Positions 4,478 through 37,749 of a DNA stretch of 37,792 nt are shown here, one piece after another. Every line of letters starts with the position of its first letter. The stretch's first letter is position 1. The notes below the pieces were generated by a model. The model had not been told where the DNA came from and searched no databases. It saw nothing but the letters and a program-made list of their open reading frames with translations. The DNA comes from a virus. Both the position numbers and the translations under genes were made by a program. The stretch spans positions 1 through 37,792 of IMG/VR virus record IMGVR_UViG_3300044522_000373; one strand, written 5' to 3'.

Positions 4478-5073
4478 CGGCGGCGTCCAAACAAGCCACG
4501 GCGAGGCGAAGGACAGACTCCGCCCGGACATTGCGACCCACGATTGATCATCTGCACCGGCTGTGATTTGTTCGCAACTTGCCGGCCCTCATGAGCCGCG
4601 GCGTGTGCATCGTGCATCTGCTGGTGAGTCATCCCGTCAGCAATGATCCCATGATCTTCGCGGAGGTGTTTTGCAGTTTCGAGGATTGTTGGATTCCAAT
4701 TCCCTTCGACGTTCCACTTCATAACGACGCTGGAAGAACGAACCGCAGGAGGTGAGGCAACCGGCTGGCTAGATTGAGACGGATTCGCCTGTGCGACCTC
4801 CTGCAGTTCGACGGCAGACTTGATCACCTCCTCCACTTTCGGGGTTTCGGATTCGACCTTGAGTGCTTCAATCTGGCCTTTTATCGCGGCCAGTGCGGTT
4901 GTGTTAGACTTCAGAATGACCAGTGATTCGTCTTGCTTTGAGACAATCACATCAGTGTTCTTCTTGAACCCACTCGACAACTCAGCGGCCCGTGCTTTGA
5001 TCTCCGCCGATGGCTCGCAGGAGCATGGATCACACCCAACCAGCATTGCAACGATTAGAATCCATCGCATCAC
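4474..5073 (-). CDS. Lipoprotein, possible outer spanin
   Basis: This 199-aa protein begins MMRWILIVAMLVGC, a short lipoprotein signal with an LVGC lipobox at Cys14, followed by a Cys-rich patch (DPCSCEPS). Residues 20-90 look like a coiled coil (SKQDESLVILKSN...IKGQIEALKVE), then a Pro/Ser/Gln linker, a HLREDHGI...HDAHAAAHEGR helical segment and a basic CPGGVCPSPRRGLFGRRR end. Location right after the protease and two genes after a holin suggests an outer-membrane lysis partner (o-spanin role), pairing with the inner-membrane protein at 5939-6418. It could also be a host-surface or exclusion lipoprotein. Confidence 0.6.
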   Translation of the reverse strand: MMRWILIVAMLVGCDPCSCEPSAEIKARAAELSSGFKKNTDVIVSKQDESLVILKSNTTALAAIKGQIEALKVESETPKVEEVIKSAVELQEVAQANPSQSSQPVASPPAVRSSSVVMKWNVEGNWNPTILETAKHLREDHGIIADGMTHQQMHDAHAAAHEGRQVANKSQPVQMINRGSQCPGGVCPSPRRGLFGRRR

Positions 5074-5942
5074 GCCACCCCCTGATTTCTTGTCCGAAAG
5101 TATCCGCCACCGCTGGCAACGCGATCGTGATACCGCTCGACAGGCTTGTCAGGCATGATCAGGTAGCCGCCGAATGGTTGCCATCGCTCTGACTGCAATT
5201 CGTCGTAGGCTTTGCGTGTCATCAAGTAAGCCCCGTAGCCGTGCGAATTCCAGACGACAAGCTGCCACACGCCATTGACGCGAATAGCCCCAATGATCTC
5301 AGTGGCATGTCCGCCACCGCCCTCCGGCGCGTCATCCATTGCCTTGAATCCGCCAATGCTTTGCTCACGGAACGGCCAGAATGTTCCGATGTGACCGACC
5401 GCTCCGACTGCAAGGCTGAGCAGGAACTGACTGAACTCAGGAAGCGGCCCCCGGCTGGCAACGTAAGTGTCTTGGATCTTCGCTGACTTCGCCCGCGTCT
5501 CGAATTTCACCACGTCGCGTTCGTAAGGTTGATAGGCCCAGTCGGATTCCAATGGAAGACCAGGAGCGACGCCCAGAGCTTTAATGCCATCAGTCCGCAG
5601 AATCGCACCGCTTTCGATTGTCGCGCCGGAGTCTCGACCGACACTGGTGCGGCCCATGATTCGCTCGGAACCCTGGTATCCGTAGGTATCCGAAAACTGA
5701 ACGATGTCACCAGTGACCCACTGCCATTGTGCTTCCGCACCGTTGGCCGTCGCGTTGCCTTCGCAGTCGTTTCGCTGCTGATTCTGCTTTCGCATGATCG
5801 TGATCAGCAGTCGAGTGCGTGCCTCTAATCGATCTTCCCAGCCTGGGAGGTCATCCGCCGCCATAGACTGGACTCGGAAGCCCGCAGCACATTCGCGGAT
5901 GCCTTCCGGTGTCGACGGGAGTAGTCCGAAGAATTCCATCAT
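5070..5942 (-). CDS. Papain-like (C1) cysteine protease, probable lysis enzyme
   Basis: This 290-aa protein shows the ordered elements of a papain-like peptidase. A Gln-rich QNQQRNDC segment carries candidate nucleophile Cys60, GGGGHATEIIG carries His212, and WNSHG carries Asn232, the counterpart of the family's NSWG. A QWVTGDIVQFSD stretch and a final FGGYLIMP strand fit the family ending. The usual CGSCW motif is degenerate. No signal peptide is seen. It follows a holin and a spanin-like gene and precedes a lipoprotein, exactly where an endolysin is expected, and no muramidase, amidase or transglycosylase is seen elsewhere. A protein-cleaving lysis enzyme is therefore inferred. A tail or head maturation protease is less likely by position. 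Confidence 0.7.
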   Translation of the reverse strand: MMEFFGLLPSTPEGIRECAAGFRVQSMAADDLPGWEDRLEARTRLLITIMRKQNQQRNDCEGNATANGAEAQWQWVTGDIVQFSDTYGYQGSERIMGRTSVGRDSGATIESGAILRTDGIKALGVAPGLPLESDWAYQPYERDVVKFETRAKSAKIQDTYVASRGPLPEFSQFLLSLAVGAVGHIGTFWPFREQSIGGFKAMDDAPEGGGGHATEIIGAIRVNGVWQLVVWNSHGYGAYLMTRKAYDELQSERWQPFGGYLIMPDKPVERYHDRVASGGGYFRTRNQGVA

Positions 5943-6418
5943 CGTGCGTACCTCCCAACGTGTGCCGCTTCTTTTTCAGCAGTCCATTGCTCGCCACCAA
6001 ACGCAGCAGCCTCAGCCGTCAGCAGCGTGGCCCATGCCGCGTCAGACTCCGGGAGATATTTCGCAGCCATCCAATCGGCAGAGGCTTTTTCGCTGGTGAT
6101 TTCACCGGCGCGGAGGGCTTTGGCTCGCTCTCCGGATAGTCGACGGAAGGCAGTTTCCTGAGTGTTGTAGACTGCGGAAACCGCGTCGGCCGGCGTTGGC
6201 CCCGGACTCACATCGATCCCACCAGCCGCCCAGATCCCGCCAAGACTGCCAAGCACCAGCAGCGATACCGCTTTCAGTCCCATCACGAGCCAAACCGGAA
6301 ACTCGACCGGCGTGCCGTAGTCGGTCGAATCGACGATTGGGACAGCAGGTTCCACAGGCACTTTTGCCCGTGGCTTGCGTTTTGCCGGTGCCTTCTTTGC
6401 GGGGGCTTTCTTTGCCAT
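5939..6418 (-). CDS. Inner-membrane protein with Lys/Ala-rich tail, spanin-like
   Basis: From the ATG at 6418, which overlaps the holin stop (TGATG), this encodes 159 aa. Residues 1-20 are a Lys/Ala/Pro repeat (AKKAPAKKAPAKRKPRAK). Residues about 44-67 form a transmembrane helix (WLVMGLKAVSLLVLGSLGG). The remainder is a mostly helical, Ala/Glu-rich domain ending in EKEAAHVGRYAR. Cytoplasmic basic tail, one membrane segment and a helical external domain match the topology of inner-membrane spanins. The gene is coupled to both the holin and the protease, supporting a lysis-cassette role. The function remains inferred. Confidence 0.55.
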   Translation of the reverse strand: MAKKAPAKKAPAKRKPRAKVPVEPAVPIVDSTDYGTPVEFPVWLVMGLKAVSLLVLGSLGGIWAAGGIDVSPGPTPADAVSAVYNTQETAFRRLSGERAKALRAGEITSEKASADWMAAKYLPESDAAWATLLTAEAAAFGGEQWTAEKEAAHVGRYAR

Positions 6419-6591
6419 CACTTCGCGGTCCTTTTTTGGACCAGCGACCACACAACTCCAGCAATCACAAGCAAGGCCCCGGCGACAGGCTCAATCTGCG
6501 AGCTGTCAAGCCACCCTTTTGCGACAGCCATTCCGCCGAGCGTCGTCAAAATATGACGGGCGAAACTGCCAATTATCAGCGATTTGTCCAC
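6418..6591 (-). CDS. Holin (Pam3-gp28-like small holin)
   Basis: This 57-aa frame starts at a GTG (6591) preceded by a strong GGAGG site seven bases upstream (6599-6603). The product reads MDKSLIIGSFARHILTTLGG, continues with VAKGWLDSSQIEP, then a hydrophobic VAGALLVIAGVVWSLVQK and a basic end. The RHILTTLGG...VAKGWL...GALL..AGVVWSL pattern is that of short phage holins of the Pam3 gp28 type. Holins make membrane lesions that let lysis enzymes out and set lysis timing. The next gene starts within the stop codon. Its leader RNA appears able to hide the ribosome binding site (see 6593-6661). Confidence 0.8.
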   Translation of the reverse strand: MDKSLIIGSFARHILTTLGGMAVAKGWLDSSQIEPVAGALLVIAGVVWSLVQKRTAK

Positions 6592-6592
6592 G

Positions 6593-6661
6593 GCTACACC
6601 TCCACCGCAAAGCGGCAGTCAAATCAGTTGAGATTTTTTGAGGTGTAGCGGTTCCACCGCT
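6593..6661 (-). promoter_or_regulatory. Holin leader RNA: RBS-sequestering stem and competing GGA hairpin
   Basis: On the minus strand GCTACACCTC (6640-6649) is perfectly complementary to GAGGTGTAGC (6593-6602), which includes most of the holin Shine-Dalgarno sequence. A second hairpin, AGCGGT-GGA-ACCGCT (6647-6661), shares its 3' three bases with the anti-SD strand, so the two structures compete. Its loop is GGA, the CsrA recognition triplet; the SD itself contains another GGA about 50 nt away. A small CCGC-TTT-GCGG hairpin (6605-6615) lies in the loop of the long stem. The phage encodes its own CsrA. Confidence 0.6.
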
Positions 6662-6667
6662 CGCTGC

Positions 6668-6695
6668 ATGTTATCGCAGATTTTTTATCTGTCCA
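6668..6695 (-). promoter_or_regulatory. Candidate promoter for the lysis/late operon
   Basis: On the minus strand TGGACA (6690-6695) and TAACAT (6668-6673) are separated by 16 bp, a fair sigma70-type match. The spacer contains the palindrome CAGATAAAAAATCTG. Expected transcription start is near 6661, precisely at the 5' base of the GGA hairpin of the holin leader, which makes the combination attractive. It is a pattern match only. Confidence 0.4.
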
Positions 6696-6943: not shown

Positions 6944-6976
6944 AGTCTTCCTTGCTATCGGAGTTCCGATCCACTG

Positions 6977-13989: not shown

Positions 13990-14181
13990 TTAATCACAGT
14001 CGGAATCTGTTGTGGTTTCGGCTGCTTTGATCGCCTCGTAGACTTCTTCGCGATGCACTTGCATACCTCGTGGAGCATCAATGCCAAGTCTGACTTTGTC
14101 CTTGCTGATTCGAGTGACCACGATTGTGATCTCGTCACCGATGCGAATCCGCTCTTCAACTTTGCGCGAAAGTACCAACAC
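13990..14181 (-). CDS. csrA: CsrA/RsmA-type RNA-binding regulator
   Basis: A GTG at 14181 with an AAAGGAG site starts a 63-aa protein that is clearly CsrA: MLVLSRKVEERIRIGDEITI at the start and APRGMQVHREEVYEAI at 36-51. The key RNA-contact residues Leu4 and Arg44 are present and the length is normal. CsrA is a dimer that binds GGA motifs in hairpin loops or ribosome binding sites and represses or stabilises mRNAs. It lies directly behind a structured RNA region. Its likely phage targets include the holin leader at 6593-6661. It could instead rewire host metabolism during infection. Confidence 0.92.
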   Translation of the reverse strand: MLVLSRKVEERIRIGDEITIVVTRISKDKVRLGIDAPRGMQVHREEVYEAIKAAETTTDSDCD

Positions 14182-17329: not shown

Positions 17330-17413
17330 TCCGAGTGACTGGACTTGAACCAGCACGGGTGTAACCCCACATGCTCCTGAAGCATGCGCGTCTGCCAATT
17401 TCGCCACACTCGG
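17330..17413 (-). tRNA. tRNA-Leu (anticodon CAG)
   Basis: A complete 84-nt class II tRNA is visible on the minus strand. It has a 7-bp acceptor CCGAGTG/CACTCGG, a D arm with GAAATTGGCAGA, an anticodon arm CATGC-TTCAGGA-GCATG giving CAG, a long variable arm GGG-TTACA-CCC, and a T arm with TTCAAGT. The discriminator is A, as in Leu tRNAs; CCA is not encoded. It lies between the XRE gene and the integrase, so it may be a phage-carried tRNA and also mark an attachment region in a host tRNA-Leu gene. Confidence 0.92.
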
Positions 17414-17606: not shown

Positions 17607-18473
17607 ATGCCGCTCATCGAATATGCCCAAGCCTATTGCACCCGCCGTCGAATCAAGCCGGTGCCCGTTTATTCCGCCCAGCGATTCGTTGCCGTCGTCG
17701 GCGCAATCGAGATTGCTCAGATCACTCAGGAAATGCTTGAGACTTTCGCCGCCCAGGCTGAAGGCTCTGCGTCAACGATCAGGGGCACCATCAAAGACAT
17801 CTTGACACTGTGCAAAGCGTCTGGAGTCACGGGCCTACGTCAATTCGTCAGGAAGCCACAGCCGAAACCAAAGCCGACTCCGATTGATTCAATTGAAAAG
17901 GCTTGGCAGTTCCTTGCCCCGTGGTCATGCCAGTACATGGTCCTGTCGTATTGGACCGGATTGCGACTTGATGACGTGCTGGAACTGCAACTAGCGGGCA
18001 TCGACCTCGACGGGGATGCGATCCGCTGGCAGGCGAGCAAGACCGGGAAAAACCATTGCTGGCCGCTGATGTCATGGATGCGACCGTATTTAACGCCAGT
18101 TCGGTTGCCCTACGCAAAATCAAACGATCATGCACAGGTGATCGTGAGGGGCGAATTGGAACGGGTGGCCCAGCTCGGGAAGGTGTCGCGCATCATGCCA
18201 CAACAACTCCGCCAACGCTCAGTGCAGGAATGGACGGCGGCAAACGCAACCGCCGGCGCAATCGTCCAAGGCATGGGACTCGGTGTCATGCAACATTATT
18301 TGGACCCGCTCATGGTTCTCCAGGGAGCTGCGCCTCGCGTCAGGCTGCCGCAATGCTTCGGAGCCACTGAATCCGCTTTGACTGAGGAAAGCTTGCTCTG
18401 TCATTTCCGCCGCCTGGATCCCGCTGCACAGGGTTTGATCAGCGGCACGGCGGAGAGGTTGGCGGCTGGGTGA
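17607..18473 (+). CDS. int: Tyrosine recombinase (phage integrase), divergent
   Basis: This 288-aa plus-strand protein has a short N-terminal core-binding domain and a catalytic domain beginning near 105. YWTGLRLDDVLELQLAGIDL holds the first catalytic Arg (120), SKTGK the beta-hairpin Lys (145), and PQQLRQRSV the second Arg (202). MQHYLDP ends with the likely nucleophile Tyr231. The HxxR histidine is replaced by Gln199 and the second His/Trp position is also not conserved (GMGLG). A GGAGA site precedes the ATG. It would catalyse integration and excision at attP, probably near the adjacent tRNA-Leu. Such substitutions are tolerated in some recombinases. Confidence 0.75.
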   Translation: MPLIEYAQAYCTRRRIKPVPVYSAQRFVAVVGAIEIAQITQEMLETFAAQAEGSASTIRGTIKDILTLCKASGVTGLRQFVRKPQPKPKPTPIDSIEKAWQFLAPWSCQYMVLSYWTGLRLDDVLELQLAGIDLDGDAIRWQASKTGKNHCWPLMSWMRPYLTPVRLPYAKSNDHAQVIVRGELERVAQLGKVSRIMPQQLRQRSVQEWTAANATAGAIVQGMGLGVMQHYLDPLMVLQGAAPRVRLPQCFGATESALTEESLLCHFRRLDPAAQGLISGTAERLAAG

Positions 18474-37273: not shown

Positions 37274-37749
37274 ATCTCTTTCAGGGATGTTCTGACTGTG
37301 TCTTCGATGGCTTCTTTAATCGGTGCTTTAAGTTCCGATGGGCAGATATTGGCACACTTCAGCCCGAGCGAGTTGAGGCGATTCACCAAGCGGGAGACGG
37401 CGATTGACAGATCCCGCTCAATATCTTCCTTTCGGACCAATCGACCACTGACGATATCGTTCTTCAGTTGTCGCGTTCTTGCGTTTTCCCACCGCTCAGC
37501 CATCTCCGCCCGCTTCAGCTCGATTCCGATTTCCGAAACTTCAGCGTCTTCGGCGACCGCTTTGATATTTTCTGACCGCCACTTCTGGACCGCCTCAGTC
37601 GATGTTCGCGGGCAGCCTCGCGCGAAGTATTTCTTCAGCGTTGTGTCTGAGACTCCAACACCCTCAACAAGTTGTCTGATTGTCAGGTTGCGGGTCTTGA
37701 CAGCTCGCTTTTTTGGCTTCCGCTTTGTTTTTGATTTGGCCTGCTGCAT
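37243..37749 (-). CDS. terS: Terminase small subunit, Nu1-like
   Basis: The 168-aa protein begins with a basic stretch (KSKTKRKPKKRAVKTRN) and an HTH (TIRQLVEGVGVSDTTLKKYF) typical of DNA-packaging Nu1-type proteins, continues RGCPRTSTEAVQKWRSENIK and a helical RLVRKEDIERDLSIAVSRLV multimerisation segment. It recognises the packaging site and recruits the large subunit. The gene crosses into the terminal repeat, so its 5' end is also present at 1-84. No good ribosome binding site is seen at the ATG. Confidence 0.8.
   Translation of the reverse strand: MQQAKSKTKRKPKKRAVKTRNLTIRQLVEGVGVSDTTLKKYFARGCPRTSTEAVQKWRSENIKAVAEDAEVSEIGIELKRAEMAERWENARTRQLKNDIVSGRLVRKEDIERDLSIAVSRLVNRLNSLGLKCANICPSELKAPIKEAIEDTVRTSLKEICDDLRIRKK

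Follow-up and report, generated by a model that had tools for sequence, protein, structure and literature searches.

A promoter-linked leader predicted to pair the ribosome binding site of the first late gene, a holin in one phage and unrelated lysis-slot genes in its relatives

The window, that is the whole 37,792-nt stretch of DNA that was analysed, is a virus record of IMG/VR, and the relatives with which it is compared here are uncultivated phages. Nearly all of its genes lie on the minus strand, where a holin gene comes first, followed by other lysis-region genes down to position 197 and then, across the genome end (circular or concatemeric), by a small terminase gene at 37749, the same order as in lambda; the terminase itself is a distant relative of the lambda/phage 21 type. 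The holin gene (6418-6591, minus strand) starts with GTG and encodes 57 amino acids plus a stop, a product that belongs to the Pam3 gp28 family (Pfam Phage_holin_10, PF23987) with a profile score of 72.7 bits against a cut-off of 27. A second in-frame start was looked for at the 5' end of the gene (VDKSLIIGSF) and none was found near the first codons; with one start codon there, a dual start of the lambda S type was rejected. In two relatives (G013 and G021) the leader described below and the terminase likewise lie close to opposite ends of the record. Given these positions and the lambda-like gene order, the late mRNA probably begins with the leader. Elsewhere in the window, a tRNA gene (17330-17413, minus strand) adjoins an integrase gene of opposite orientation (17607-18473, plus strand), a pair that possibly marks an attachment site, and a 41-bp block (4868-4908) in gene 5073-4474 is 90-93% identical in the relatives L003 and L046, with neighbouring matches at 66-75%, and may hide an overlapping element.

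Upstream of the holin gene, a -35-like TGGACA (6690-6695) and a -10-like TAACAT (6668-6673) lie on the minus strand with 16 bp between them, a combination (6695-6668) whose scan score by itself is at chance level. In 17 distinct relatives the position is conserved as a TTGACA promoter with the same 16-bp spacing and the same distance to the lysis gene, mostly with an extended -10 (TGGTAnnnT); TAACAT itself recurs in L078 and L085, and most of the others have TAnnnT after TGG. It is this conservation of TTGACA and the extended -10 at equal distance that makes a promoter before the window's holin likely. The sequence-only reading had placed the RNA start exactly at a hairpin if this promoter is used; the site is present, and from its position the RNA would be expected to start at about 6661, so that the leader probably begins at the 5' hairpin. 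Most relatives (L062, L067, L072, L085 and others) carry the palindrome ATCGGAACTCCGAT or close variants of it at about 20 bp from the leader promoter, on its upstream side, possibly an operator or activator site; the window has the exact 12-mer core once, at 6958-6971 (minus strand), before a small gene (6943-6755). L003 has a strong terminator-like hairpin (2603-2640, GCCCGTG...CACGGGC TTTTTT) after the gene upstream of its holin promoter, and nothing like it is apparent before the promoter of the window.

The Shine-Dalgarno sequence (SD) of the holin gene, GGAGGTG (6597-6603, minus strand), ends 5 nt before the GTG start (6591-6589) and pairs with the anti-SD of the ribosome at -10.2 kcal/mol. 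As had been noticed from the sequence, it lies in a perfect 10-bp stem, here called P1, whose upstream anti-SD arm (GCTACACCTC, 6649-6640) complements the 3' arm over the SD (GAGGTGTAGC, 6602-6593) without a mismatch, and this stem is present in the minimum free energy (MFE) fold (-34.1 kcal/mol, z = -4.0, with none of 200 shuffles equally good; z = -3.0 when the leader is folded without further sequence). In that fold P1 closes around two small hairpins on the minus strand: an A/U-rich one, AAATC-TCAACT-GATTT (6621-6636), which is predicted in the MFE and centroid folds, and a predicted hairpin, GCCGC-TTT-GCGGT (6604-6616), which by its position and by the GACTGC just upstream appears to be the counterpart of a covarying hairpin, P2, in relatives. 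Opening the SD would cost 12.0 kcal/mol, the highest value among the 49 gene starts of the window, and the complementarity between SD and anti-SD arm exceeds that of dinucleotide shuffles (p = 0.012). The stem also emerges from an inverted-repeat search of the window (I7, 13 nt, 92%), and since ten inverted repeats of that size occur there, the repeat taken alone is not remarkable. A transcription terminator at the leader was ruled out: P1 has no T-run after it and no terminator is called at the site.

The predicted 5' end of the RNA forms a further hairpin, AGCGGU-GGA-ACCGCU (6647-6661, minus strand; -7.0 kcal/mol alone), which does take bases from the stem, as claimed: it has 3 nt (6649-6647) in common with P1, namely the outer 3 bp. 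The sequence-only reading had built on this competition a lysis-timing switch in which CsrA, encoded by the phage, contacts GGA in the hairpin loop and in the SD and either blocks the SD or, by holding the hairpin, frees it. Both GGA motifs are indeed there in the window (in the hairpin at 6661-6647 and in the SD at 6603-6601), about 50 nt apart; in relatives they are not conserved, none of the 18 that were aligned having GGA in the SD and L003, L066, L080 and L082 lacking it anywhere in the leader. The 5' hairpin loop of L003 is CCAA. Nor does the hairpin release the ribosome binding site, for when it is enforced, at a cost of about 6 kcal/mol, 7 bp (ACACCUC/GAGGUGU) stay over the SD, which has an unpaired probability of 0.00-0.09 at six of its seven positions. 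As the SD stays paired through these inner 7 bp, the GGA hairpin and P1 are not an on/off pair.

The csrA gene (window 13990-14181, minus strand) is a remarkably constant phage gene in this phage group. Its product is intact in the window, with Leu4 and Arg44, residues that are important in CsrA. Every one of the 13 related records that reach 28 kb carries csrA, whether or not it has a leader of the family, and its co-occurrence with the leader is for that reason uninformative. The temperate Burkholderia phage JC1 also carries a CsrA homologue, described as a moron gene whose product is possibly virion-associated, and a link to lysis is not reported for it (PMC9144972). CsrA of phage or host might still bind the GGA hairpin and the SD of the window leader itself and repress or derepress the holin, and the two well-spaced GGA sites and the intact phage protein would fit such binding; against the non-conservation of GGA, the closed SD under the enforced hairpin and the independence of csrA from the leader, we regard it as very improbable. 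As a general mechanism in this phage group, the CsrA switch was rejected on the same three results.

What relatives retain was followed from the closest outwards. In L002/L051, which differ from the window at 12% of aligned positions overall, a 142-nt block (6542-6683, minus strand) covering promoter, leader and early holin codons is unchanged between two diverged flanks; it is the second-longest identical run in the 5.9 kb aligned (the other being 176 nt), and its identity could come from recent recombination. L003 has a holin with 91% amino acid identity to that of the window, yet a different leader sequence, in which the SD is fully paired by other bases (ACUCCACGA/UCGUGGGGU, pairing probability 0.99-1.00). 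The outcome that was to tell against the earlier reading, a holin kept and its complementary pairs lost, was checked in L003: the holin is kept, the leader looks unrelated, and a different stem nevertheless covers the SD. Judged by eye, the window leader keeps GACTGC and CGCTTTGCG-GTGGAGGTG, as against CGTTGCGTCGTGGGGTG in L003.

More distant leaders were searched for by three routes, namely through the neighbouring gene, with a pattern that includes the SD and with a pattern blind to it. The neighbouring downstream gene, used as query, led to 14 loci with the same arrangement, at which the lysis slot holds proteins of the PF23987, WWQSKTIW, KVWYSK or MxKLIGE type, and the pattern scan, which gave 17 distinct leaders with a common promoter and plan, added a lipoprotein-like protein as a fifth type. 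In spite of these different slot proteins, most of the loci have the same promoter and a leader that can be aligned. The SD-blind scan, aimed at members with an altered SD, returned the same family together with 11 chance matches and no further kind; it and the neighbour-gene route, neither of which uses the SD, recovered the same SD. On this point the earlier reading is supported, relatives keeping a leader of the same plan. A model of the family finds one leader copy per record, and its match to the window leader is correctly placed and weak (9.8 bits, E = 2.6 in 122 kb); compared by eye, the window leader seems to have shed some 20 nt, the P2 loop among them, and to have gained a stronger P1. 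A third leader type, in L064/L112/L113, has the same promoter spacing and a GGAG SD within a long stem, at an opening cost of 9-11 kcal/mol, so that an SD held in a stable stem by an upstream arm is found in the window, in L003 and in L064/L112 alike. In L046/L058 the lysis slot is without the family leader and has a short, different one instead.

The promoter and a leader of about 70-90 nt are conserved before at least five unrelated small lysis-slot proteins, and the phages in which these proteins are exchanged have flanking genes or the leader in common. The leader belongs with the promoter rather than with the holin. In L052-L065 and L085, five or more small proteins, membrane or lipoprotein-like and unrelated to one another, take the slot before the equivalent of window 5939-6415. 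A leader peptide was considered and rejected: the frame and start differ between leaders (TADRPQKCGG..., TAPGLRNVPD*), L003 and L082 have none, and no SD precedes the frame.

In the alignment of the family P2 covaries, and its stem occurs as CCGCC/GGCGG, CCGGC/GCCGG and CCCGC/GCGGG, with two pairs changed on both sides from G-C to C-G; 98.9% of its alignment cells are paired, against 17-59% with slid partners, and its covariation score is above those of all 500 shuffles. For P1, the anti-SD helix, 90% of cells are paired (29-55% in slid controls of the whole structure), and the changes mostly retain C or U opposite G and A or G opposite U. Variation in P1 is one-sided within the main family because the SD side is invariant there; across the three divergent leader types (window, L003 and L064/L112/L113) the helix has changed on both sides.

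Shuffle tests of SD masking itself gave a mixed picture. Shuffles of the 5' region let the SD pairing of L003 and L072 stand out (nominal p < 0.05), whereas in the commonest subtype (L054, L067, L071, L084) neither SD pairing nor fold energy is better than in dinucleotide shuffles, and a G-rich SD is often paired anyway, which limits SD pairing as a general proof. Combined across the distinct leader classes, whose independence is not complete, the anti-SD complementarity has a p of about 0.001. In four relatives the SD opening cost of the lysis gene ranks 1/63, 8/55, 4/59 and 4/55 when only the leader is folded, and 23, 17, 2 and 19 when coding sequence is included, three of the four then standing at 17-23 of 55-63. 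Since the commonest subtype pairs its SD no more strongly than shuffled sequence does, the general claim of SD masking is only of moderate strength. In L068, L072 and L075, the first bases of the RNA (GGCACCCC) form a second complement to the SD (GGGGUGUC), and two different upstream arms could therefore mask one SD.

The same shuffles lend something to the view that the region is retained as DNA, a promoter and a recombination linker for the exchange of lysis genes with RNA folds that are incidental, and so does the way in which unrelated lysis genes are flanked by conserved sequence, the leader upstream and a gene downstream. A linker would not be expected, though, to show compensatory G-C/C-G flips in P2 or three different SD/anti-SD sequence pairs in the window, L003 and L064, and we consider it an unlikely explanation. 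Alternatively, the leader may act on transcription, in the way that the put RNA of HK022 and the nut and qut sites make polymerase resist terminators, its RNA carrying terminator resistance along the late operon and the SD pairing being a by-product. Its place at the head of a late operon that resembles that of lambda and the conservation of its sequence and of P2 whatever gene lies downstream would suit this role; but the most constant part of the leader extends into the SD, the window retains the SD stem and not the P2 loop, and Rfam has no match, all of which makes the role improbable.

We find it reasonably probable that a promoter-linked, SD-masking leader limits the translation of the first late gene, the cassette staying constant while lysis-slot genes are swapped. 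A dedicated sigma-70-like promoter would give a late mRNA from about 6661, the first 70 nt or so of which would fold with P1 pairing the holin SD to the upstream anti-SD around the GC-rich P2; P1 would strongly restrict ribosome entry, and with ribosome entry restricted, the holin is proposed to build up slowly and lysis to be delayed. The promoter-leader cassette would remain while unrelated lysis-slot genes were exchanged beneath it. Most likely, on the predicted folds, the SD masking would serve as an intrinsic brake on translation of the first late gene, and the sharing of promoter and leader by unrelated lysis genes suggests that this brake on lysis is portable.

A lock of 12 kcal/mol is heavy enough to leave room for an opener, and the leader might be a genuine switch instead of a constant brake if a trans-acting factor other than CsrA, a phage protein or a small RNA, opened P1 late. 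Very little translation would proceed unaided at such an opening cost, and the main family keeps both the CCUCAG loop of P2 and the GACUGC/GCGUC on its flanks constant while the P2 stem covaries, as for a recognition site. The window leader, however, is without the CCUCAG loop and would work, if at all, lacking it, and the factor is hypothetical; we hold an opener to be rather doubtful. The boldest form of the preferred masking model, in which a promoter-linked leader class foreign to Rfam masks the start of any lysis gene, yields to an opening factor of phage or host and so works as a portable lysis clock, is put forward tentatively, as a possibility. If true, unrelated holins would be exchanged under one conserved timing element, and these phages would owe part of their lysis timing to an RNA element that can be exchanged. 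The timing of lysis is commonly put down to the holin protein; in this phage group the holin looks less conserved than the regulatory leader. The leader RNA is a candidate for RNA family libraries.

The leader has no match in Rfam at or near the gathering score. No relatives were found in sequenced prokaryote genomes, and isolate phages and plasmids yielded none of the holin, the endolysin slot or the leader, apart from short stretches of plasmid sequence that match the leader by chance. In the literature, no paper was found on a link between CsrA and a holin leader or on this leader.

Leaders that mask an SD are already known, those of lysis genes included, and the new aspect here is that the leader is common to unrelated lysis-slot genes. 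The window leader resembles E. coli leaders of the glgC type, which are repressed by CsrA, in carrying GGA both in the loop of a hairpin and within the SD, and differs from them in that its GGA motifs are not kept in relatives and that the RNA alone already masks the SD. The lambda S leader, with its sdi and dual start, is alike as a structured RNA before the first gene of the late operon that tunes holin output, whereas the window holin is without a holin/antiholin pair from one gene. In gene e of T4, which encodes the lysozyme, and in similar lysis-gene hairpins, an upstream complementary arm likewise masks the SD of a lysis gene. The late promoter of T4 gene e starts inside the hairpin and the SD is thereby freed; the only visible promoter of the window, by contrast, lies upstream of the leader, and the masking arm would accordingly always be in the transcript.
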